From Nitrospirales bacterium (GTDB lineage Bacteria; Nitrospirota; Nitrospiria; Nitrospirales; UBA8639), in NCBI GenBank assembly GCA_022825885.1, contig JAJDVY010000003.1, positions 1 through 64,000 of the forward strand: a DNA stretch of 64,000 bases, given 5' to 3'. Numbering within the stretch: the first letter of the stretch is position 1; each line of letters opens with the position of its first letter. The notes beneath the pieces were generated by a model that had not been told where the DNA came from, ran no database searches, and worked only from the letters and a program-made list of their open reading frames with translations. Below are positions 38,710-49,137 of this stretch, one piece after another. A program made the translations under genes and the position numbers.

Positions 38710-40674
38710 CTACGTGGTCGAATGGCTGACCACCCGCGTCATTCCCGGTTCCCCCTCTTTGCCGCCTTCCGGGTCCACCTTGGCCACCGGCCACGTGATC
38801 AACCCCGCCACGGTATCGGGCGCGGCATCGGCAGGACTATGCCGGGTGGCATAAATTTGCGGTAACCGGTTCGTGCCGAACCGTGAAATGTAGAGGAAGA
38901 TCTGCTCGCGGGCGTTGATCCGCACGGCCCAGGGTTCGAAATCGTTCTGATAAAACTCCTCGCACAACTGCATGGCATCCAGGCAACTCAGGCTCCCCGG
39001 TTCATTCAGCGTGTAATAGTAATCCAGGGGCATATCGTATTCATCCTGCTTCTGAATCGTCATGCCGAATTTGTCGGGATTTCTGACCATGGGCGTATGC
39101 CGGTAGGCGACGAAGTAAAACAATTCGACCGAATGGATGTCGGTTTTATTCTCGATCAGGAACCGGCGCGTGTCCTCGGCTTCTTCCCTGGTCTCGCCCG
39201 GGAATCCGTAAAACGCCATGACGTGATTCCAGATCCCCGCCTTTGCGGCTTCCCGCAGATTGTTTTCGATCACGCTCTTCCGCGCGTGCTTATCCATGAG
39301 TTCCAGGACGCGCTCATTGGCCGACTCCATTCCGTAGTACAGGGTCTTGCAGCCGGACTCCGCGGCCAGTCGCCAGGTTTCAGGATCCTGAAGCGTCTCC
39401 TCAAAGCGGATCAACGTGGTCCACTTGATGTCCACCTGCTCGTCTACCAGGAGTTGAGACACCTTTTTAAAGAGCGCGGGCGGATAGGATTCGTCGGCAA
39501 AGAGGAAGTGATCGGCCTGATACGTCTCCTTGAGAGCTTTGACTTCCCGGACCACGTCCTGGGCCGGCTTGCCGCGATACTGGTCGAAGTAGCCTTGCCC
39601 GTGATCGCAAAACGTGCACCGCCCCCAGTAACAGCCCCGGGTCGCCAGGTACGGCAGGATACGCGTGGGGACGAAATAAGAATCCAGGGGAAACCCTTGA
39701 AAATCAGGCAAGGGGAGCGCCGTGGTCTTTTCCGTATATATCTCCGTGTTGATCCGCACGTGCCCGTCTTCCCGGTACATCAGGTTCGGGACCGACTGCC
39801 ACGCTCGGTCCCCCACCAGGGCCTCCAACAACCACACCAGGGCATGCTCGCCTTCATACATGACGGCCGAATCGAACACGGAGGAGAAAAACGGCTCCTG
39901 TTTCGCCAAATCTTCCTGAAGCCGCGTGATCACGTTTCCCCCGACCGTGACGTGGATATCCGGGAACGCCTCCTTGATCATTTTGCAGAAGGTGAAGCCC
40001 GCAATCATTTGCATCTTGGTGCCAATGGAGACGCCGACCACGTCCGGCCGCTCTTTGGCGACCGCGGACAGCACCAATTGCCGGCACACGTCCCGGTACA
40101 CGTTGACCTGCTCGTCGTCCAGACACGTGAGGACTTCCTTCGAGACGCCGGGCCGGTAGCCCAGATTGCTCTCCATGGGGTAATACACCAGCGAGGCGGG
40201 GAAATACGCCGCGGAGATGTACCGCATGACGTCGCGAAACACGTTCAACGCCCATTCGAGTTTATCGGCCTCGTAGAAATCATCGCTCCGGTTGATGCGT
40301 TTCGCTTCCTCGGCATTTGCGGCCAGGTCCATCACGTCGAAGGCCAAGGCTTCCTCCAAACAGGCCTTCTGGTCGATCTCCTTGTCACTCAACCCTTCAC
40401 GCGGTTCCTTCGCTTCAAGCGCCTTGAATTGTTGGACCATGCGCGCGTTGACCCAAATCAGGAACATGTCGCTGAAGAACAACTCGTACATTTCGATGTT
40501 GATGTCCCGCTGCACGACCTCATGCCCGTTTTCCCGGAGCACGGCCGTGAGACTCGGCAACGCCAGGTACGGAGCCGTGGGCACCCACTCCGGCGGGAAG
40601 AGCAGCATGGTCTTCAACTTCCGGCCGCTCTTGGTTTTCGACGCCGCGTTATCGATGTGGATGAGGGAAGACAT
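38710..40674 (-). CDS. B12-binding-domain radical SAM protein, copy 2
   Basis: 654 residues. An N-terminal cobalamin-binding-like Rossmann domain (MLLFPPEWVPTAPYLALPSL, GHEVVQRDIN; no DXHXXG motif) precedes a radical SAM domain with GCYWGRCTFCDHG. The cluster cysteines are spaced CX4CX2C rather than the usual CX3CX2C. FYGFPGETREEAEDTRRFL is typical of the family. It is about half identical by eye to the gene at 40674-42569 and starts exactly at that gene's stop codon. Such enzymes catalyse methylations, ring rearrangements or cyclisations. The substrate is unknown. Confidence 0.85.
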   Translation of the reverse strand: MSSLIHIDNAASKTKSGRKLKTMLLFPPEWVPTAPYLALPSLTAVLRENGHEVVQRDINIEMYELFFSDMFLIWVNARMVQQFKALEAKEPREGLSDKEIDQKACLEEALAFDVMDLAANAEEAKRINRSDDFYEADKLEWALNVFRDVMRYISAAYFPASLVYYPMESNLGYRPGVSKEVLTCLDDEQVNVYRDVCRQLVLSAVAKERPDVVGVSIGTKMQMIAGFTFCKMIKEAFPDIHVTVGGNVITRLQEDLAKQEPFFSSVFDSAVMYEGEHALVWLLEALVGDRAWQSVPNLMYREDGHVRINTEIYTEKTTALPLPDFQGFPLDSYFVPTRILPYLATRGCYWGRCTFCDHGQGYFDQYRGKPAQDVVREVKALKETYQADHFLFADESYPPALFKKVSQLLVDEQVDIKWTTLIRFEETLQDPETWRLAAESGCKTLYYGMESANERVLELMDKHARKSVIENNLREAAKAGIWNHVMAFYGFPGETREEAEDTRRFLIENKTDIHSVELFYFVAYRHTPMVRNPDKFGMTIQKQDEYDMPLDYYYTLNEPGSLSCLDAMQLCEEFYQNDFEPWAVRINAREQIFLYISRFGTNRLPQIYATRHSPADAAPDTVAGLITWPVAKVDPEGGKEGEPGMTRVVSHSTT

Positions 40675-42569
40675 CAGACGTTCGCCAATTCTTCGGAACT
40701 CTGTTCCGGCGCGATGCGGAATTGGAGGGCCGGCAGCTTGTTGGTGCCGAAATGCGCCACGTAGAGAAAAACGTATTCGCGGATGTAGATCTTCAAATCC
40801 CAGCCGGCGTAATGATTCTGCTCGAACTCTTCAAACACCCGTTCGGCGTCCTCGACGCCCAGCCCCTCCTTCACGGTGAAGTAATAATCCAGGGCCAGGT
40901 CCCATTCGGGATTTTTGTAGAACGTAATGCCCCACCGCTCCGGGTCCTTGGCCACCGGGGTATGCTTGCTGAGATCGAACGTGCCGAAGCCGATGGAATG
41001 CACGTGCTCCCTGTTGTCTTCCAGGAACTGCATGGAAAACTTGGCGTCTTCGTACCGCTCGCCCGGGAACCCGAAAAATCCCATGATGTGGTTCCACACC
41101 CCGTGTTTCGAGGACAGTTCCAGGCTCCGTTGGATGACGTCGGTGGTCGTCGCCTTATCCATAAGTTTCAGGACCCGCTCGCTCCCGGATTCGTAGCCCA
41201 TGTGGAGGAACTTGCATCCTGAATCCTCGGCATCCTGCCACACCTCGTCGTCCAACAGGCTCTTCTCGAAGCGGATGTGCGTGGTCCACGCAATGCCCAA
41301 TTGGTGTTCCTTGAGTTGACGGGTCAGTTTGCGGAAGAGTGCCGGGGGGTAGGATTCATCGGTAAAGTGAAAATGCCGCGTGTGATACTTGTCGCGGAGG
41401 AACCGGACTTCCTCGATGATTTCCTGAATTTTCTTGGTCCGGTAGCCGGCCGTATACCCTTCGCCGTGATCGCAAAACTCGCACCGGCCCCAGTAGCACC
41501 CGCGGGTCGCCAGATACGGCAGCACGGGTTCCGGCACAAAGTAGCGGTCCATCGGGAGCCCGTCGAAATCCGGCGGCGGCAGGTCCGCCATGTTCTCGGA
41601 GGACGTGACCGGCGAGGTATGAATGCCCGCATCGTCCCGCCACAGGAGATTCGGAATCTCGTTGAAGTCGCGGTCCGTCCCGACCGCTTCCACCAATTGA
41701 AGGAACGCCGTTTCGCCCTCGTACACCACCGCGGTGTCAAACAGCGCAAACAGCTTGGGCGTCGTGGGCAGCACGTCGCGCAAGCGGGTCACGGTATTGC
41801 CGCCGATGGTCACGTGGATCCCGGGGAATTGCTCCTTGATCATGGCGCAGAAGGTCATGGTGGAAAAGAGCTGCTGCCGCAACACGATGGAGATACCGAT
41901 GATCTCCGGCTTTTCTTCGAGAATAGCCGGTTTGACGACGTGCTCGAACACGTCGCGATAGACGTTGACTTGCGTATCCTCGACCGCGGCCAGGACCTCC
42001 GACGACATGAACAGTTTGTACGACAGGTCCGTTTCCATCGGCGGCATACAAATGCGGGCGGGCGCGTAGACCAGTGAAATGGTCGCCGTCACCTCCCGAA
42101 ACACGTTCATGGCCCATTCGAGTTTCGCCGCGTCGTAGAACTCCGGGGAACGGATGATCGCCTTGGCGCGCTCTGCCTGCTCGATCAGGTCAGCCATGCG
42201 AGACCGGGTGCATTCGCACAAGGCCATCTGTAACCCGGTTTCTTCCTCCGAGAGGCCCCGGTCACGGGCCAGACGTTTCAAGCGATCCAGTTGCTGGGGC
42301 ACGCGCTTCAATACGCGCTTGAGGAAGTCCGCGCTGAAATACCAATCGTACATCTCGAGGTTGACGTCTTTCTGCACCACGTCATGCCCGGCACGGCGCA
42401 AGAACGCGGTCAACGTCGGAAGACTCAGGTAGGGCTCGGAGGGATACCAGTCCGGCGGGAAGAGCAGCATGACCTTTTTCTTGGGCCCGCCGTTACCCTG
42501 GGATTCCGTGCGACGCTGCTTCAAAAGCTGCGGGCTGATCAGCCCGCCTTTATTGTAGTCGACCCGCAT
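40674..42569 (-). CDS. B12-binding-domain radical SAM protein, copy 1
   Basis: 631 residues. Same architecture as the following gene: MLLFPPDWYPSEPYLSLPTL, then GHDVVQKDVN, VTIGGNTVTRL, and the radical SAM block GCYWGRCEFCDHGEGY with CX4CX2C spacing. The ATG at 42569 has AAGGAT ahead, whereas the 24-residue longer start has none. The stop overlaps the start of copy 2 by one base, so both proteins are made together and may form a heterodimer or do sequential steps. No precursor peptide gene was recognised nearby. Confidence 0.85.
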   Translation of the reverse strand: MRVDYNKGGLISPQLLKQRRTESQGNGGPKKKVMLLFPPDWYPSEPYLSLPTLTAFLRRAGHDVVQKDVNLEMYDWYFSADFLKRVLKRVPQQLDRLKRLARDRGLSEEETGLQMALCECTRSRMADLIEQAERAKAIIRSPEFYDAAKLEWAMNVFREVTATISLVYAPARICMPPMETDLSYKLFMSSEVLAAVEDTQVNVYRDVFEHVVKPAILEEKPEIIGISIVLRQQLFSTMTFCAMIKEQFPGIHVTIGGNTVTRLRDVLPTTPKLFALFDTAVVYEGETAFLQLVEAVGTDRDFNEIPNLLWRDDAGIHTSPVTSSENMADLPPPDFDGLPMDRYFVPEPVLPYLATRGCYWGRCEFCDHGEGYTAGYRTKKIQEIIEEVRFLRDKYHTRHFHFTDESYPPALFRKLTRQLKEHQLGIAWTTHIRFEKSLLDDEVWQDAEDSGCKFLHMGYESGSERVLKLMDKATTTDVIQRSLELSSKHGVWNHIMGFFGFPGERYEDAKFSMQFLEDNREHVHSIGFGTFDLSKHTPVAKDPERWGITFYKNPEWDLALDYYFTVKEGLGVEDAERVFEEFEQNHYAGWDLKIYIREYVFLYVAHFGTNKLPALQFRIAPEQSSEELANV

Positions 42570-42755
42570 GATCCTTACTCCCCACAGTCGAATCCGGACA
42601 GAAGAAAAGCCGGTCCTCGACAAAGGCCTCCTTGATGCCATTCATTCTATGCCTCAGGAAAATAGCGGTCAAGGAAAACAACGACAGGGTCGTTCGGCCC
42701 GATCGTCATTCCTGTATGTGTTCAGTCATTCGTTGACAAGATTCGTTGTCTCTTT

Positions 42756-43003
42756 CTGTCATCCCCGACCCCGATCGGGGATCCAGGGTCGTTGCTTCAC
42801 GGACGAAGAAAAACCAAAGACACTGGATCCTCGATTAAAAATGTCGAGGATGACAGACAAAGGCAAAAAGCCAAGCCGTGGCTTCGTTTCAGATCAAGCC
42901 TGGGATTATGTCAACGAATTAGTGAATATTTACAATCCCCGATCCTCGATTAAGAATGTCAAGGACAGGCTCTGATCGGGGATCCAGTGCCTTTGTAACC
43001 GTG
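42756..43003. repeat. Dispersed palindromic repeats, one full and one partial copy
   Basis: The full copy lies at 42756-42856 (CTGTCATCCCCGA...TCGGGGATCCAGGGTC; GACACTGGATCCTCGATTAA ... GAGGATGACAG). A partial, rearranged copy at about 42938-43000 contains CGATTAAGAATGTCAAGGAC and CGGGGATCCAGTGCC. They mark the left border of the accessory island. Confidence 0.75.
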
Positions 43004-43052
43004 CGATCTATCGGGAATGGGCCAAATCTACAATGAAATGACAGCGTTGCAA

Positions 43053-43119
43053 AATGTACAAAATTCACGATTTTGTACATTTGTTACAAAATGTAACATT
43101 CGTAATATTTTGTACAAAA
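43053..43119. promoter_or_regulatory. Cluster of three TGTACA-type palindromes
   Basis: AATGTACAAAAT/ATTTTGTACATT (43053-43081, perfect 12-base arms, 5-base gap), TGTTACA-AAA-TGTAACA (43082-43098) and TTTTGTACAAAA (43108-43119, perfect). The AT-rich cluster lies at the left edge of the accessory island. It could be operator sites for a repressor or a recombination site. No gene for a matching regulator is evident. Confidence 0.6.
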
Positions 43120-43293
43120 CGTACAAATTGCACACAGATCGACAACGCGCCACGCAAAACACACCAAAAATCCGGGAACATGAAATGATTGACTATGATT
43201 TTGACAGGTGAAACGGTAAGATAGGCAAGCCCGCTTGACGCTGGTAACGGTCCGCGTCCATTCAGCGGTTTGACCTGAATTTGCAGCATCCCC

Positions 43294-43568
43294 ATGCCGA
43301 CCCTGGATTTCAGAGGCAAACCACTCGTTTACGCCCATCACCTGAGCGTCCCCGCACGAACACTTGAGCCGGAGGACAAAAAATCCCTCCCGCCGAAAGG
43401 CCGCAAACCGTCCCTTGACGACAACGTGAACAGTCCCATGATGCAGGAGTGGCCAAGAAAAAACAGAAAACCGCCGTCGTCTTCGCCACCCACAAATTCA
43501 TGAGCCAAAAAGAATTGACCCACATGGGCATCACGTTCTGCGGATCGCCGCATGGCGTATCTTTCTAA
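43294..43568 (+). pseudogene. Remnant of a site-specific (type III-like) DNA methyltransferase gene
   Basis: Residues 1-44 from ATG 43294 (TLDFRGKPLVYAHHLSVPAR, then KGRKPSLDDN) match the N-terminus of Mod-type adenine methyltransferases, where NLIIHGDN and the catalytic DPPY would follow. Here the match stops at SLDDN and the frame ends at 43503. A second frame from about 43449 to a TAA at 43568 (KKKQKTAVVFATHKFMSQKE, then THMGITF) may be the 3' end of the same or another gene. The middle, with all catalytic motifs, is gone. Confidence 0.5.
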
Positions 43569-43624
43569 AAATGCGATAAGATTAGTTACAGTTCGATCCA
43601 CTTACTCGCAAAGAGAGAATACAT

Positions 43625-43867
43625 ATGAAATCAATTGACAAGAATATAGTTATAGCCTCGGACGGCAAACTCCCGTCGGCCTTCCGCGAGGCATTTGGCC
43701 GAAAGGCCTGTGTGATTGTTCATCTGCAAGAAGACGCTCACAGGAAAACGCAGGGCATAAGCCACCCAATGGATCTCGCCGGCAAGATTCGGGCATTCCA
43801 AGACGTTGATGCCCCCGTCGCTTGGCAACGTGCCCTTCGAGATTCGTGGAAACGCGATGAGATTTAA
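43625..43867 (+). CDS. Small antitoxin-like protein
   Basis: 80 residues. The start IDKNIVIASDGKLPSAFREA recalls AbrB/MazE-type or other small antitoxin proteins. The C-terminal part (GKIRAFQDVDAPVAWQRALRD) resembles tails of antitoxins that mask a toxin. It overlaps the hicB gene by 11 bases. No complete toxin partner is recognisable, since hicA next door is cut short. The family is uncertain. Confidence 0.5.
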   Translation: MKSIDKNIVIASDGKLPSAFREAFGRKACVIVHLQEDAHRKTQGISHPMDLAGKIRAFQDVDAPVAWQRALRDSWKRDEI

Positions 43868-44063
43868 CGTAACGGTTGATCGAGATGAAGACGGGTTATG
43901 GATTGTTGAATGCCCTGCAATCCCAGGTTGTGTGAGTCAAGGCCAAACGAAAATTGAGGCACTCGACAACATCAAGGGTGCCATCGCGCTGTGCCTTGAA
44001 GTACGTGCGAAACAAGGGATGCCCTTGACCATCGAGACGCGGCAAATAGAGGTCGCGGTGTAA
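43857..44063 (+). CDS. hicB: HicB-family antitoxin
   Basis: 68 residues. RFNVTVDRDEDGLWIVECPA then IPGCVSQGQTKIEALDNIKGAI is the HicB partial RNase-H fold. It lacks a C-terminal DNA-binding helix, as in the short HicB group that binds HicA only. ATG 43857 lies inside the preceding gene. The TAATG junction at 44061-44065 couples it to the hicA start, which is broken after about ten codons, so this antitoxin is probably an orphan. Confidence 0.8.
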   Translation: MRFNVTVDRDEDGLWIVECPAIPGCVSQGQTKIEALDNIKGAIALCLEVRAKQGMPLTIETRQIEVAV

Positions 44064-44125
44064 TGCCCGTATTGCCTGCTTTAAGCGGGAAAGTCAGAAA
44101 TTCTAGAATTATATTGGCAATATGA
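44063..44125 (+). pseudogene. Truncated hicA toxin start
   Basis: ATG 44063 overlaps the hicB stop. PVLPALSGK is the normal beginning of HicA toxins of this group (next would be a helix, then a GSH motif). Unrelated codons follow and a TGA ends it at 44125. The missing rest is not found in the window. The break lies just before the DruA-like gene, marking the likely left junction of an insertion. Confidence 0.6.
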
Positions 44126-45273
44126 ATTGGGACGTCGCTATGCGCTCATCTCTTATACGAAAGATCAACTACACCCTACGAATGCAAGGATATGACATAT
44201 CCAAGGGTATGTTCTCACTCACCAGAGGAGATAGAGAAAATCTGCGACGAACACATGCTTTGGCGAAAAGGGAACGGATTGCCAGGAAAATTCCCTTTAT
44301 TCGCGATCATACAATATTTATTCAAGATCATATGATTGATGGCAAGGATTTACGTATTGAGAATATCTCGCCAAAACTGATCCCTGTCGTCAAAACGTCA
44401 CACTGGGAAACACTCTTTCGATGGTGGAATTATGTCTGGTGGAGCATGCCGTACGAGGCGGCTTATGGGCGGCAGATGCGATATATTGTTTGGGATCAAC
44501 ATCATCAAGCAGTTATCGGACTTATTGGCTTACACAGTCCGCTTTTGTCTTGGGCCCCTCGTGACCACTATTTAGGCCTCCCCCCGGCAAAACGTGATTA
44601 TTGGGTTAATCAGTCGATGAGTGCTCAACGAGTTGGGGCTGTGCCACCATATAATATCATCTTGGGTGGGAAGCTGGTCGCCATGCTCATGACAAGTGAC
44701 ACCTTACGTAAAGATTTTCACAGAAAATATTCGAAGCAAGCTACAGTGCTACAAAAACGAGAGTTGCCCGCCAACCTCTTATTTATCACCACAACAGGCG
44801 CATTCGGTAAAAGCAGCCTCTATACACGGTTAAAATTTGGCGATGAGCAGTTGGCTTCGTTTATCGGCTACTCTAACGGCTCAGGATCGTTTCACGTTCC
44901 AGATGCAATCTACGAACAACTGTTAACTGAGTTGGACAAAAGCGGCGTGAATGTCAAGCGAGGATACGGTCATGGCCCTTCGCGCAAGATGCGCCTGATT
45001 CGGGCAGGAATGGAAGCGCTGGGCTATCAGAACGGCGTCCTTCACGGCGTGAAGCGCGCCATTTATTTGTTCCGGTTTGCCAGGAATTTGGATAGGTTGA
45101 TTGCCGGCAAGGCCCAACGACCTCTCTGGCATCATCGTCAGGAAAGCGACCTTACCGACTTTTGGAAAAATCGTTGGATTTTACCCAGAATCGACGTACG
45201 CGGAGCATGCTTGCGACAATTTAACAAGAAGCAATTCATCGATGAACAACTTAAGGAGATCGACTGCTTATGA
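44122..45273 (+). CDS. DruA-like DUF4338 protein
   Basis: 383 residues. The core RYIVWDQHHQAVIGLIGLHS, APRDHYLGLPPAKRDYWVNQ and FIGYSNGSGSF match the DUF4338 (DruA) layout, including the APRD and G-rich end motifs. In Druantia type I, DruA appears with DruB-E; here no DruE helicase is present. The start is ATG 44122, or 44140 if the first lacks a binding site. Its last four bases are the start of the NurA-like gene. Codon and base use are AT-richer than neighbours outside the island. The molecular role of DruA is not known to me. Confidence 0.7.
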   Translation: MNWDVAMRSSLIRKINYTLRMQGYDISKGMFSLTRGDRENLRRTHALAKRERIARKIPFIRDHTIFIQDHMIDGKDLRIENISPKLIPVVKTSHWETLFRWWNYVWWSMPYEAAYGRQMRYIVWDQHHQAVIGLIGLHSPLLSWAPRDHYLGLPPAKRDYWVNQSMSAQRVGAVPPYNIILGGKLVAMLMTSDTLRKDFHRKYSKQATVLQKRELPANLLFITTTGAFGKSSLYTRLKFGDEQLASFIGYSNGSGSFHVPDAIYEQLLTELDKSGVNVKRGYGHGPSRKMRLIRAGMEALGYQNGVLHGVKRAIYLFRFARNLDRLIAGKAQRPLWHHRQESDLTDFWKNRWILPRIDVRGACLRQFNKKQFIDEQLKEIDCL

Positions 45274-46481
45274 GCACAGGCGGTCCGACTCCTTATGCCC
45301 ATTTACCCGAGGATTTGATTCAGAAAATGCTCGAAGCCGTTCCTTGCACGGTGGAAAAGATGGAAGCGATGCTCGGTTCACAGAATGAACCCATTGAAGC
45401 AGGAATAAGAGCACTTAGAGATCAGAACTTTATATACACATTGAACCCGCAAACACCTTCCATCAATTCACTCATGGCCTCTGATGGCGGTCAGGTTATA
45501 GAAAGAATGAGCGGCATGGATCTATTGCTTGCTGTTGCCGTCGGAGTCGAAGGATTGCACAATCAAGATGGCGATGGCTGGAAGGCTAACAGCAATCAAT
45601 ACGAGCAATGGCAGACGGTTATGCCGCACGACGAAGCGACGCCTCGTTTGTGCCAGGGCGCAATGTTTCTTATGGAAATCGGTGTACTTGCCGGCGCAAC
45701 GCATGAAATAAGAATAATGGATGGCGCACATTTTACGCCGTTGCTGAAAATCAACAGCATGCTGTCAGCCAAGGAAGAACATGCTGGCGAGGAGTATGTT
45801 ACCGCTTTACGTGGTTTTCTGCGTGAAACTTACAGAAAAATCATCCCCGATATTCCAGACATCATATCGAATGCGTTAAACGACCCCGGCATTATAGCAA
45901 TGGCAAAATACAGTTCGTCTCGTGACATTCTGGATTCTCATGTCAGGAGTGCGGACATTAACGGCATTACCCTGGATGACAAAACCTTTTTTGCGCTTGG
46001 TTTGGATTCGGACGAATACACGAAACCGATGTCCGTAGGTCAAAGCGAAGAAGAAAGAAGAAAAATATGGAACGAACTACACATACACTGCAATCTGGAA
46101 ATTGAAGAGAGAGAAGATCTCAACCAACATCTCGAACGGGCTATTCAGCCCATACGCACAAGAAACGGAAAGGAACGAAAAGAATCCGAACTGTTCTTTA
46201 CATATTACAAGCCTTATGCCAACGGCCCTGCATACAGAATTGAATGCAAGCGTTCTCTTGCCACAGACGTCAGGCGCTTTGAAGGTGTACTGGCTGGCAT
46301 CAAGCAGCAAATCATCTATCCTGACGTCCGGGAACCCTTTCCTCAATATTTGGCGGACTTGATGGCGAAGAGTGTCTCCGGGGGGCTGCACGCCCTACAG
46401 GATGCCGTACGTCTTTCGCTTGTCCGTGAGTCGAACAGCGCGGACCGTGTCGATTTATTGTTTTCCTACCGGAGTCGCTAA
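45270..46481 (+). CDS. NurA-like nuclease
   Basis: 403 residues. A first acidic motif ASDGGQV (Asp72), a second IMDGAHF (Asp151) and a late SGGLHALQDAV block parallel the NurA domain, an RNase-H-fold 5'-3' nuclease whose manganese ligands are such aspartates. In archaea NurA works with HerA to resect DNA ends. Here it sits exactly between the DruA-like and HerA-like genes, overlapping each by 4 and 1 bases. The level of similarity is low and the call rests partly on that context. Confidence 0.7.
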   Translation: MSTGGPTPYAHLPEDLIQKMLEAVPCTVEKMEAMLGSQNEPIEAGIRALRDQNFIYTLNPQTPSINSLMASDGGQVIERMSGMDLLLAVAVGVEGLHNQDGDGWKANSNQYEQWQTVMPHDEATPRLCQGAMFLMEIGVLAGATHEIRIMDGAHFTPLLKINSMLSAKEEHAGEEYVTALRGFLRETYRKIIPDIPDIISNALNDPGIIAMAKYSSSRDILDSHVRSADINGITLDDKTFFALGLDSDEYTKPMSVGQSEEERRKIWNELHIHCNLEIEEREDLNQHLERAIQPIRTRNGKERKESELFFTYYKPYANGPAYRIECKRSLATDVRRFEGVLAGIKQQIIYPDVREPFPQYLADLMAKSVSGGLHALQDAVRLSLVRESNSADRVDLLFSYRSR

Positions 46482-48274
46482 TGAGCCAAACCAACAAACC
46501 TCTATACGAAATGGTGAGTAAAATTAATGCTGTGCCACTGGGTGTCGTTAGTTCTCCAAGCACGACACTGGAAATTGCCTTGGATATTCGTAAGGCGAGT
46601 GAGAGCAGACGTGCGTTAGGGCAAATGGTTTTTGCACAATTGGAAGAGGATGGCCGGCGCATTTTGTCTCTCGGGCAGATCGTCGAAGTGGAAACCAAAA
46701 ATCGCTGGCACGAAGATCCCTCCTTTAAAGGTGTGATAAAGCATCATGGGAGCCTACCTCATTTAAGCGGTGTGGCGGACAATCGAATGGCAAAAATAAG
46801 TGTGCAATCAAGTTTTGATGTTACCAATCAAGAGCCGGAGATTTATTTGCTGGGAATGTCCCCTTCAACTGGAATCCCTGTGGAAATTGTGAACAACGAT
46901 CTAATGGATTTACTCGTTCAACATCACAAAAAAGCCATTACTTATCTCGGTAAAGTCTATGGAACAGATGTTGACTTGCCGATGTGGTTTAAACATTTTG
47001 GTCGAGACGAAGATATTCCAGCCTTGGGCGCAAAAGACGCCTACCATATAGGTGTGTTCGGTAAAACCGGTTCGGGGAAAAGCGTGACTTCCGCCCTGAT
47101 GTTGCTTGCCTACGCCAAAAACAAAAAACACATGAACATTCTGGTCTTAGATCCGCAGGGTCAATTTTACAAAGATCGTGATTTGTTACCTGGCGAAGAA
47201 GGGCATCTGCTGGAAGAGATACAAAGAACCGGCATGAACGTTCAAAAATTCAAACTAATTGAAGATGTGTCTCTTCCTGAGACACATATTGAGCTTTTCG
47301 CGGAATTGCTGGCAAACAATGGGTTTATTCAAGAAGCGTTCGGACCATTTTATACCGATGAAAAGGCTGAGCTCATGGGAGCGTCGATCGCCTCCTATAT
47401 AGATGGCCTAGCGAACAACCCGAGCTTTAAGCTGAATAGCGTAGATCCAATGGACCTGCTTTTGAAGATGACTGAACGTTTTGTAACGGTGAAAAGGGAG
47501 AAAGGCGAAAAAGACTTCTCAAAATATATAAAGGATGTCTATGGCACGCGGCCTACGCAAGAGAGACTACTTAGTGCAATTCAAAAAGTACACGATGCCT
47601 TGGAACGTAACCAATCACCACCTTATCTGGAAACATGGAAACAGGCATTGGCCATGTTTTCGAAAGATCGCAAAACGAATATTGCGAAGATTTGCGAAAT
47701 AATCACGGGAAAAAACCGAGGCAATTTTGTAGTGCTGGACTTGAGTCCTTCCGAAGGGGAAATCGAAAACGACAATTTGCAGGCGCTGTTTTTGCGCCTC
47801 ATTGAAAAAGGCATCGTTGAGTCCGGGGGAAATTTGTATGCCAAGGGTGACAGTGCCAACTGCCTGATCGTCATGGATGAGGCTCACCGCTTTATTTCAA
47901 GTCATTCGCCTGACTCTCGAATCAAGGATCTGACCCGTGAGATCGTCGACGCCTTTCGTACGACGCGCAAATACGGCATCGGCCATATGTTTATCACGCA
48001 ATCCCTGGAATCCTTGGATGACGAAATCATCAAACAGATGCGAATCTTTGCATTTGGCCATGGATTGACCATGGGTTCCGAATTGCGCAAGGTGAAAGAG
48101 ATTATCAACAATCAAGCATCAGTTAACCTTTATGCATCATTTATCGATCCTAGCAACAGCGGGAAATTTCCCTTCATGTTCTTTGGACCGGTATCGCCTT
48201 TTTCGGCAACCGGCTCTCCACTGTTCGTTGAGATTTACAGCAGCTACCAAGACTACTGTATCAAGAACCAATAG
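46481..48274 (+). CDS. HerA-like hexameric DNA-translocating ATPase
   Basis: 597 residues. After an N-terminal HAS-barrel-like domain (QMVFAQLEEDGRRILSLGQI) comes the motor: Walker A GKTGSGKS at 194-201, Walker B NCLIVMDEAHRFI and the sensor-like TTRKYGIGHMFITQ. HerA hexamers push double-stranded DNA to NurA. A GPVSPFSATGSPLFV tail is typical of HerA. TAATG links it to the NurA-like gene. Together with DruA it forms an operon of three, all with intact-looking motifs. Confidence 0.85.
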   Translation: MSQTNKPLYEMVSKINAVPLGVVSSPSTTLEIALDIRKASESRRALGQMVFAQLEEDGRRILSLGQIVEVETKNRWHEDPSFKGVIKHHGSLPHLSGVADNRMAKISVQSSFDVTNQEPEIYLLGMSPSTGIPVEIVNNDLMDLLVQHHKKAITYLGKVYGTDVDLPMWFKHFGRDEDIPALGAKDAYHIGVFGKTGSGKSVTSALMLLAYAKNKKHMNILVLDPQGQFYKDRDLLPGEEGHLLEEIQRTGMNVQKFKLIEDVSLPETHIELFAELLANNGFIQEAFGPFYTDEKAELMGASIASYIDGLANNPSFKLNSVDPMDLLLKMTERFVTVKREKGEKDFSKYIKDVYGTRPTQERLLSAIQKVHDALERNQSPPYLETWKQALAMFSKDRKTNIAKICEIITGKNRGNFVVLDLSPSEGEIENDNLQALFLRLIEKGIVESGGNLYAKGDSANCLIVMDEAHRFISSHSPDSRIKDLTREIVDAFRTTRKYGIGHMFITQSLESLDDEIIKQMRIFAFGHGLTMGSELRKVKEIINNQASVNLYASFIDPSNSGKFPFMFFGPVSPFSATGSPLFVEIYSSYQDYCIKNQ

Positions 48275-48339
48275 AGAAGCCCTCGATTGAGAGGAAGCAG
48301 CCAAGCAAAGAAGCAAAAAATATCAGGGAAACCTTAGGC

Positions 48340-49137
48340 TTGAAAGAAACACAGCAGCAGATTTGTTTCATTGTCATTTTGGGAACACTTTGTGGGCTTG
48401 CCCTGCTTGCTGTTCCCCTCCAGGCGGAAGCGCCGTCTGCGCTTCACGTGGGGGCTTTTTCCCGCGCACAGGCCGGGGGACCCTATCCTGATTCCTGGAA
48501 GCCGCTCACGTTCCACAAGATCGACCAGCATACCGAGTACTCGTTGGTGGAAGACGAGGGGACCGTGGTCGTCAAGGCCGTGAGCCGCGGCTCTTCCTCG
48601 GGGTTGATCCGGGAAGTGACTATCGACCCCAAGGAATATCCCATTATCGAATGGCGCTGGAAGATCGAGAACGTGTTGCAACAGAGTGACGTCACCACCA
48701 AGGAGGGAGATGATTACCCTGCCCGGTTGTATATCACGTTCGTCTATGACGAGAGCAAAATCGACTTTTTGGACCAGGCCCAATATGAACTGGCCAAACT
48801 GCTTCACGGGCAATATCCCCCGACCGGAGCCATCAATTACATCTGGGAGAGTCGAAGTCCGATCGGGACTATGATTCCCAATCCCTACACGGACCGCGCC
48901 GTCATGATCGTCGTCGAAAGCGGAGAGGCCAAAGCCGGGCAGTGGGTGACCGAATCGCGCAACTTGTACGAGGATTATCGAACAGCGTTCGGGGATGACC
49001 CGCCCCCGGTCTCCGGAGTGGCCGTGATGACGGATACCGACAACACGCAGGAATCCGCCGTGGCCTATTACGGCGACATCACGTTTAGGAAAGGCGGCGG
49101 ATACAATGCCTCTACCTCCCCTCGCCCCTCCTTATAA
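48340..49137 (+). CDS. DUF3047 secreted protein
   Basis: 265 residues. A signal peptide (ICFIVILGTLCGLALLAVPL, cut after QAEA) leads into the DUF3047 pattern: GLIREVTIDPKEYPIIEWRWK, DDYPARLYITFVYD and NPYTDRAVMIVVESG. It is probably a periplasmic beta-sandwich protein; no activity is known. The start is TTG 48340 with AGGGAA about ten bases ahead; no ATG in frame is near. The last codons (TSPRPSL) fall in a CCCCTCCTT palindrome, so the original C-terminus may have been extended by a repeat. Confidence 0.75.
   Translation: MKETQQQICFIVILGTLCGLALLAVPLQAEAPSALHVGAFSRAQAGGPYPDSWKPLTFHKIDQHTEYSLVEDEGTVVVKAVSRGSSSGLIREVTIDPKEYPIIEWRWKIENVLQQSDVTTKEGDDYPARLYITFVYDESKIDFLDQAQYELAKLLHGQYPPTGAINYIWESRSPIGTMIPNPYTDRAVMIVVESGEAKAGQWVTESRNLYEDYRTAFGDDPPPVSGVAVMTDTDNTQESAVAYYGDITFRKGGGYNASTSPRPSL

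Follow-up and report, generated by a model that had tools for sequence, protein, structure and literature searches.

The Tdp system of Thermus works with DNA phosphorothioation (PT) by TdpC and has a role in PT defence. To our knowledge, the role of DruA, a signature gene of Druantia I, is still open. HerA-NurA complexes of solved structure pump and cut double-stranded DNA (dsDNA); the T. kodakarensis pair cuts both strands, and its authors have proposed an antiviral role for it (PMC12977600). NurA and HerA also appear among putative CRISPR auxiliary genes in a figure legend of PMC10910872. The Druantia subtypes have a single part in common, the helicase-nuclease effector DruE (PMC13192584), and in BRC systems with HerA a GNAT is predicted to modify self DNA (PMC12839542). 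Here we describe an operon of three genes, druA, nurA and herA, at 44122-48274 of the window (the whole 64,000-nucleotide stretch of Nitrospirales contig JAJDVY010000003.1 that was analysed). This operon is conserved, it recurs beyond chance, and we think it likely that its three genes provide defence against invading DNA by HerA-NurA with DruA as partner.

The operon is intact, with all three genes on the + strand and overlaps of 4 bases (druA/nurA) and 1 base (nurA/herA). The initial annotation had given the same overlaps, which follow from the open reading frame (ORF) coordinates 44122-45273, 45270-46481 and 46481-48274. Its features are these:

44122-45273, + strand: DruA (PF14236/DUF4338), full-length form, 383 residues; from Pfam, the PADLOC DruA1 model and an AlphaFold2 (AF2) model.
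44353-45141, + strand: GNAT-fold part of DruA, residues 78-340, aligning with phage Mu Mom and other GNATs in structure comparison.
45270-46481, + strand: NurA-fold nuclease, 403 residues, overlapping druA by 4 bases; from Pfam, motifs and fold comparison.
45483-45485, + strand: codon of NurA Asp72, the aspartate of DG motif I, unchanged in all 13 aligned members of the family.
45720-45722, + strand: NurA Asp151 codon, in the second invariant DG motif of the alignment.
46332-46370, + strand: NurA C-terminal motif EPFPQYLADLMAK, residues 355-367, with E355, D363 and K367 invariant in the alignment.
46481-48274, + strand: HerA/FtsK-type hexameric ATPase, 597 residues, overlapping nurA by 1 base; from Pfam, PADLOC and PDB matches.
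47060-47083, + strand: HerA P-loop GKTGSGKS, residues 194-201, invariant in 5 of 5 aligned sequences.
47864-47887, + strand: HerA LIVMDEAH, residues 462-469, with D466, E467 and A468 invariant in 5 of 5.

A search of 395 Nitrospirota genomes with PF14236 gave 54 matches in 39 genomes. All 13 full-length DruAs (at least 200 bits) have a HerA-profile gene within ~6 kb; 18 of the 41 weaker matches were examined, in 17 stretches, with no NurA or HerA in reach. The direct order druA-nurA-herA is found in eight genomes (G000, G197, G340, G356, G196, G293, G296 and G380; G and L numbers are our labels for genomes and loci). A single gene is inserted between druA and nurA in two more: in G079 it codes for a sacsin/NOV_C protein, with a 224-residue gene between nurA and herA as well, and in G207 for a pentapeptide-repeat protein whose P-loop may be read as NACHT-like. 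The loci with a sacsin/NOV_C or pentapeptide protein in this place are L024 and L025. In G302 and G227 the gene between druA and herA is NurA-like but divergent. G335 has the order nurA-herA-druA and a NurA that passes Pfam (E 7e-8). Across families, the NurA-type genes of the DruA-linked loci are ~25% identical. The window NurA family, found with our profile A1, is present in 11 of the 395 genomes, 10 of them DruA-linked; in the eleventh, G057, the contig ends inside nurA, and NucS-like and BrxC/D-like genes precede herA. Pfam NurA finds 10 of the 395 genomes, seven DruA-linked and three (G118, G213 and G299) with no DruA in the genome. In these three, which hold all the DruA-less PF09376 loci of the phylum, herA-nurA adjoins an N6/N4 DNA methyltransferase (MTase).

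In Omnitrophus magneticus the trio lies next to hsdR. The window NurA family was found in 2 of 193 Omnitrophota genomes and strong DruA (E up to 1e-40) in 2 of 285, with NurA-HerA only in G395; a second Omnitrophota contig carries nurA, a GmrSD gene and herA before it ends. The trio is also present on three viral contigs, followed on one of them by an N6-MTase. Two of these are among the 27 viral loci found by DruA and the third, L117, was found via HerA; of the same 27, L089 has a weak HerA match, L093 is Druantia I, and most are another phage form. Phage records held no relative of the window NurA, and plasmid records held three distant NurA-HerA pairs without DruA (Natribaculum, Rhizobium and Euzebya). 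Among the neighbours of the trio elsewhere are type III restriction-modification (R-M) genes (L002, L027), HsdR (L005) and an N6-MTase after HerA (L087). Thus the conserved co-occurrence of the three genes, which the initial annotation had named as support for a system, was found, and defence genes recur beside it.

BrxC/D-like and NucS-like genes, or a GmrSD gene, are inserted between nurA and herA in L030 and L036; these inserts are putative modular accessory effectors. The separate herA-nurA-N6/N4 DNA MTase triad is that of L164, L165 and L166, in three Nitrospirota genomes, with a ResIII-type helicase gene beside that of L164, a possible further HerA-NurA R-M system.

The window HerA matches Pfam DUF87/HerA (PF01935) at E 4.6e-11 (43.7 bits, cut-off 23.2), and a five-member alignment has its P-loop and DEAH-type motif intact; we take GKTGSGKS to be Walker A and LIVMDEAH to be Walker B. 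The middle protein, matched to Pfam NurA (PF09376) at E 0.022 with 14.7 bits, falls below the cut-off of 21, but six members of its family pass it (G079, G207, G380, G296, G196 and G293). An alignment of thirteen sequences of this family (identity to the window protein 22-78%) has Asp72-Gly73, Glu136, Asp151-Gly152, Lys213, Glu249, Glu355, Asp363 and Lys367 invariant. Its profile finds solved NurAs first, weakly (3tai, E 0.014; 2ygk, E 0.051), and Asp72 aligns with the DG motif of both. Asp49 of T. kodakarensis NurA is called essential in PMC12977600, and Asp72 would be its equivalent. Foldseek with a weak AF2 model of the middle protein gave NurA 2ygk as best match (E 2.9e-4), and VIA-align placed NurA structures at ranks 1-8 (Z 11.7-7.4), an RNase H-like putative nuclease at rank 9 (Z 7.3) and an unrelated structure at rank 10 (Z 4.3). 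From Pfam-positive relatives, invariant motifs and these ranks, the NurA fold that had been assigned to the middle gene stands, with the caveat of a weak model. The protein has no match in PADLOC 2023 or NCBIfam and, in these two and Pfam, no match to SIR2 or DUF4297; seven relatives searched against PADLOC 2023 gave a single match, to Cas12a, which is at chance level (E 0.014).

In the NurAs of L066-L068 and L164-L166, an AH pair ends a YP-type motif corresponding to EPFPQYLADLMAK. Pfam finds nothing in the NurA-type gene of L066/L067, whose match to our profile A4 is non-significant (E 0.21), and the hhalign comparison of A4 with the Pfam-positive NurA of L068 was likewise non-significant. 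The only PDB match for the NurAs of L066 (E 0.046) and L068 (E 0.043) is TdpB, which is weak; from this and its motifs the L066/L067 middle gene is called a probable NurA.

The window DruA matches Pfam DruA at E 7.4e-61 over its length and the PADLOC DruA1 model at E 7.6e-82. Its AF2 model is good (predicted local distance difference test, pLDDT, 82.7; predicted template-modelling score, pTM, 0.80). Foldseek with this model gave acetyltransferases, GCN5 first at E 9.7e-3 and none below 0.001, and VIA-align placed Mom (8bv8) first (Z 10.2, 177 residues aligned, root-mean-square deviation 3.8), followed by other GNATs at Z 9.5-8.5. This agrees with the statement in PMC10853773 that DUF4338 is a GNAT domain. 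On the good model we therefore describe the protein as a predicted GNAT-fold protein in preference to the DNA-binding or sensing candidate that it had been taken for. The GK pair G183, K184 is invariant in the DruA alignment and would stand where GNATs bind coenzyme A (CoA).

The fit to the DruA1 model places the trio beside Druantia I. We take DruE to bear the MZB domain (PF09369). This domain has no match in the trio's own genome, which is 95.5% complete; no large helicase lies next to the trio and none of its ORFs is a YprA-type helicase. Because the genome is without the DruE helicase-associated domain, the trio is not a Druantia, and membership was rejected in spite of the type I DruA; the initial annotation had already remarked that DruE was absent. 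Three plasmid records have a full-length DruA, each with a large DEAD/DEAH helicase adjoining (P. putida, Nitrosococcus watsonii and Meiothermus taiwanensis), and the genes of the viral contig L093 match those of Nitrosococcus and keep their order. In the DruA tree these plasmid loci (L167, L168, L169) and L093 cluster together within the HerA-linked DruAs (joins 95/93 and 96/96). The tree is midpoint-rooted with two long rows and gives no direction of partner swap; L068 and the phage rows, which have long branches, come together in it, and their placement is unsure. The HerA-NurA label changes 6 times on the tree, and 25 of 500 shuffles were as low.

The three genes are intact and under purifying selection, with ratios of non-synonymous to synonymous substitution of 0.08-0.11 against L004 and 0.09-0.13 against L003. 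Protein distances across 13 trio loci correlate with r = 0.96 for NurA-HerA, 0.81 for DruA-NurA and 0.76 for DruA-HerA; each r was reached in 0 of 5000 permutations, and includes shared descent. Between L087 and the window NurA is 37% identical and DruA 27%, and the looser DruA fit would agree with exchange of DruA, as for example in L087.

In the genus, the operon lies at a site with exchangeable contents. This site could be recognised by a DUF3047 gene in 13 of 14 genomes, and the window NurA family and trio are found at it in four (G000, G197, G340 and G356). In G242 nothing separates DUF3047 from the radical SAM genes; the interval is no more than 0.2 kb in G386 and ~1 kb in G065, and in G200 it holds small ORFs. 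In G173 and G302 DUF3047 is directly preceded by a type III restriction gene, the G302 site holding NsnABC and a type III MTase additionally; the G081 site has a type III MTase, and G081 and G227 have an ORF that matches the G173 restriction gene in length only (843 residues). The G179 site was left out of this comparison. Since the site is empty or carries R-M or NsnABC genes in relatives, the operon is one exchangeable cargo of a defence hotspot. Across the genus (13 genomes) the hotspot corresponds to the interval from the B12-type radical SAM cassette to DUF3047/metH, 40674-49137 in the window. The AT-richer island in a defence setting that the initial annotation had described is equally apparent: GC content is 0.46-0.48 across ~43-48 kb of the window and mostly 0.55-0.60 in the flanks, and a type III Mod 3' remnant (identified by eye) and a HicB-like antitoxin lie immediately 5' of the operon. 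The context features are:

43448-43567, + strand: remnant 3' end of a Mod gene (type III R-M), by eye against the intact Mod of L002.
43806-44063, + strand: HicB-like antitoxin, outside the operon (PF15919, E 9.9e-8).
48340-49137, + strand: DUF3047 gene bordering the hotspot (Pfam).

At 43625-44063 the HicB-like antitoxin is without a recognisable HicA, the preceding 80-residue ORF having no Pfam match. Short AT-rich inverted and direct repeats, seen by eye, surround TTTTGTACA / TGTACAAAAT motifs at 43030-43140.

In the mechanism that we propose, HerA, a hexameric DNA translocase, would pump invading dsDNA into NurA, an RNase H-like nuclease, which would cut it, the two forming a motor-nuclease. 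DruA would supply the discrimination between self and non-self; in the form we favour it would mark the DNA of the host with an acyl-type group, or read such a state, and HerA-NurA would destroy the unmarked invading DNA. We infer the defence function and the formation of a complex, and likewise the degradation of dsDNA, this last from the solved HerA-NurA complexes. DNA modification by DruA is the weakest step on its own and is put forward tentatively. It is suggested by the MTase in all three DruA-less Pfam-NurA loci together with the GNAT fold of DruA and its precedent in BRC. Its fullest version, which we think unlikely, is a non-methyl R-M system in which DruA writes an acyl-type mark and HerA-NurA is the restriction arm that shreds unmarked DNA. 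If true, the same would explain Druantia I, with DruE standing in for HerA-NurA as motor-nuclease, and would give DruA its first activity.

Several observations weigh against parts of this scheme. The AF2 model of the middle protein, made from eight sequences, is poor (pLDDT 57.8, pTM 0.57). L087 has DruA and an MTase together, and DruA is therefore no plain substitute for an MTase. NurA-HerA pairs of the window clade occur without DruA in reach in L021, L022 and L086, and no MTase lies beside those of L021/L022 in what was scanned; DruA is therefore not obligatory. Mom, whose momylation is treated in PMC7824862, is tied with the other GNATs because its Z leads them by less than one unit, and membership of DruA in the Mom family was rejected, there being no sequence kinship and Mom's invariant residues being missing. 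When DruA alignments were compared by hhalign with Mu Mom alone and with an alignment of ten Mom sequences, the probabilities were 0.2, 0.6 and 0.7%. The short region that did align (DruA residues 121-140, Mom residues 61-78) is in register with the structural match, to which we give no weight. The Mom alignment has His48, Tyr49, Asp139 and Tyr149 invariant. By eye, DruA has no counterpart of the first three (Ser108 and Thr224 instead), and Tyr149 with Tyr234 of DruA is the sole pair that may match. A Pfam scan of 17 DruA members that admitted E values as high as 10 found no Mom family, and a literature search on the Mom active site yielded nothing useful. Finally, Druantia I uses DruA, and we know of no modification there.

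That use of the same DruA subfamily beside DruE is also what gives substance to the chief alternative, in which DruA is not a DNA modifier but a sensor, loader or regulator that releases the motor-nuclease; it might detect an infection state or acylate HerA, NurA or a phage protein, possibly with abortive damage to host DNA. The missing Mom residues and the signalling-type genes between druA and nurA (L024, L025) are in line with it, as is DruH, a non-DruE partner called a likely sensor in Druantia III (PMC13192584). We nevertheless regard it as rather unlikely, given that the best-covered DruA fold is that of an acyltransferase with invariant G183 and K184 at the presumed CoA site, and that an MTase partners each DruA-less PF09376 locus of the phylum.

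Both remaining explanations dispense with defence. The pair might serve housekeeping, as HerA-NurA do in archaea and Deinococcus when they resect or degrade DNA ends (PMC12977600), with DruA adjoining by accident; a NurA family in 11 of 395 phylum genomes and 4 of 14 genus genomes, in a mobile hotspot with R-M genes, and a DruA linkage kept between NurAs ~25% identical make this very unlikely. The trio might instead be part of a mobile element, for transposition, conjugation or packaging: its HerA resembles conjugation and packaging ATPases, it occurs on viral-called contigs, serine recombinases adjoin it (L025 and, by eye, L088), and short DUF4338 proteins stand beside transposases or are fused to them (L072, L077, L080, L081). 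At the loci examined, however, no transposase, relaxase or portal gene is constant beside the full-length trio and defence genes recur, and we consider this very unlikely.

Most DUF4338 matches in the phylum belong to another, shorter form; of five that were checked, four adjoin a transposase or are part of one: IS66 transposases adjoin in L072 and L077 and DDE_Tnp_1 in L080, DDE_5 is fused in L081, and L071 has DruA alone. The transposase-fused protein of L081 matches Mom at E 0.018, which is a lead only. A further form is seen on IMG/VR contigs (L097-L112 and L115) as DruA-like proteins of ~400 residues (phrog_19197, of unknown function; L102 was scanned); on many of these contigs the DruA-like gene is followed by one of ~445-515 residues and one of ~250 residues, a conserved phage arrangement. 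PADLOC and RefSeq-type labels name any DUF4338 protein DruA, which is misleading for the transposase-linked short forms.

The initial annotation knew of no described system of this composition, and none was found: PADLOC 2023 and the literature searched, mostly non-subscription and with newer catalogues outside it, gave no description of the set DruA, NurA and HerA. PMC12458937, on the YprA family, has 0 whole-word occurrences of DruA, DUF4338, HerA or NurA, PMC11291478 mentions NurA-HerA in its reference list only, and PMC11493637, a review of gut bacteria containing the words NurA, HerA and DruA, was set aside on its title as not pertinent. Both the parts and the theme are known, and we could find no description of the combination. 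With the same DruA subfamily repeatedly tied to a different motor-nuclease, DruA would be a specificity module that can move between systems, and DruE and HerA-NurA may be able to replace each other as executors.

Compared with Druantia type I (DruA-B-C-D-E), the trio has the same DruA subfamily, but the B/C/D/E proteins of L167-L169 are unmatched by NurA and HerA profiles; it may work like Druantia with another executor. The HerA/FtsK capture and BRC systems likewise join a HerA motor to a nuclease (PMC12839542, PMC10853773) but carry PglZ, ORC/Cdc6, STAND, DUF4007 or Dnd, none of which is a constant part of the trio; PMC10853773 names neither NurA nor DruA (0 occurrences), and PMC12839542 does not name DruA (NurA was not searched there). 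The HerA-NurA end-resection complexes of archaea and Deinococcus share the NurA fold and the HerA motor, whereas the trio is patchy, lies in a defence hotspot and is DruA-linked. Such complexes had been assigned to archaeal biology, but they are bacterial as well, in Deinococcus (cited in PMC12977600; structure 7f6d). The HerA-SIR2 and HerA-DUF4297 pairs also couple a HerA-type ATPase to an effector, which in the trio is a NurA-fold nuclease with druA linked as third gene. The PDB matches include solved HerAs of such pairs, 9c1m and 8xau. SIR2 and DUF4297 had been given as the partners of HerA in other defence pairs; the PDB also has a defence-named pair of HerA and NurA-like proteins, TdpA/TdpB (8wet). 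A literature search on Tdp gave nothing useful. This TdpAB(-C) system of Thermus again has a HerA-like motor, TdpA (E 9.9e-15 against the HerA profile), and a NurA-like TdpB, and differs in that the trio has DruA in the place of TdpC.

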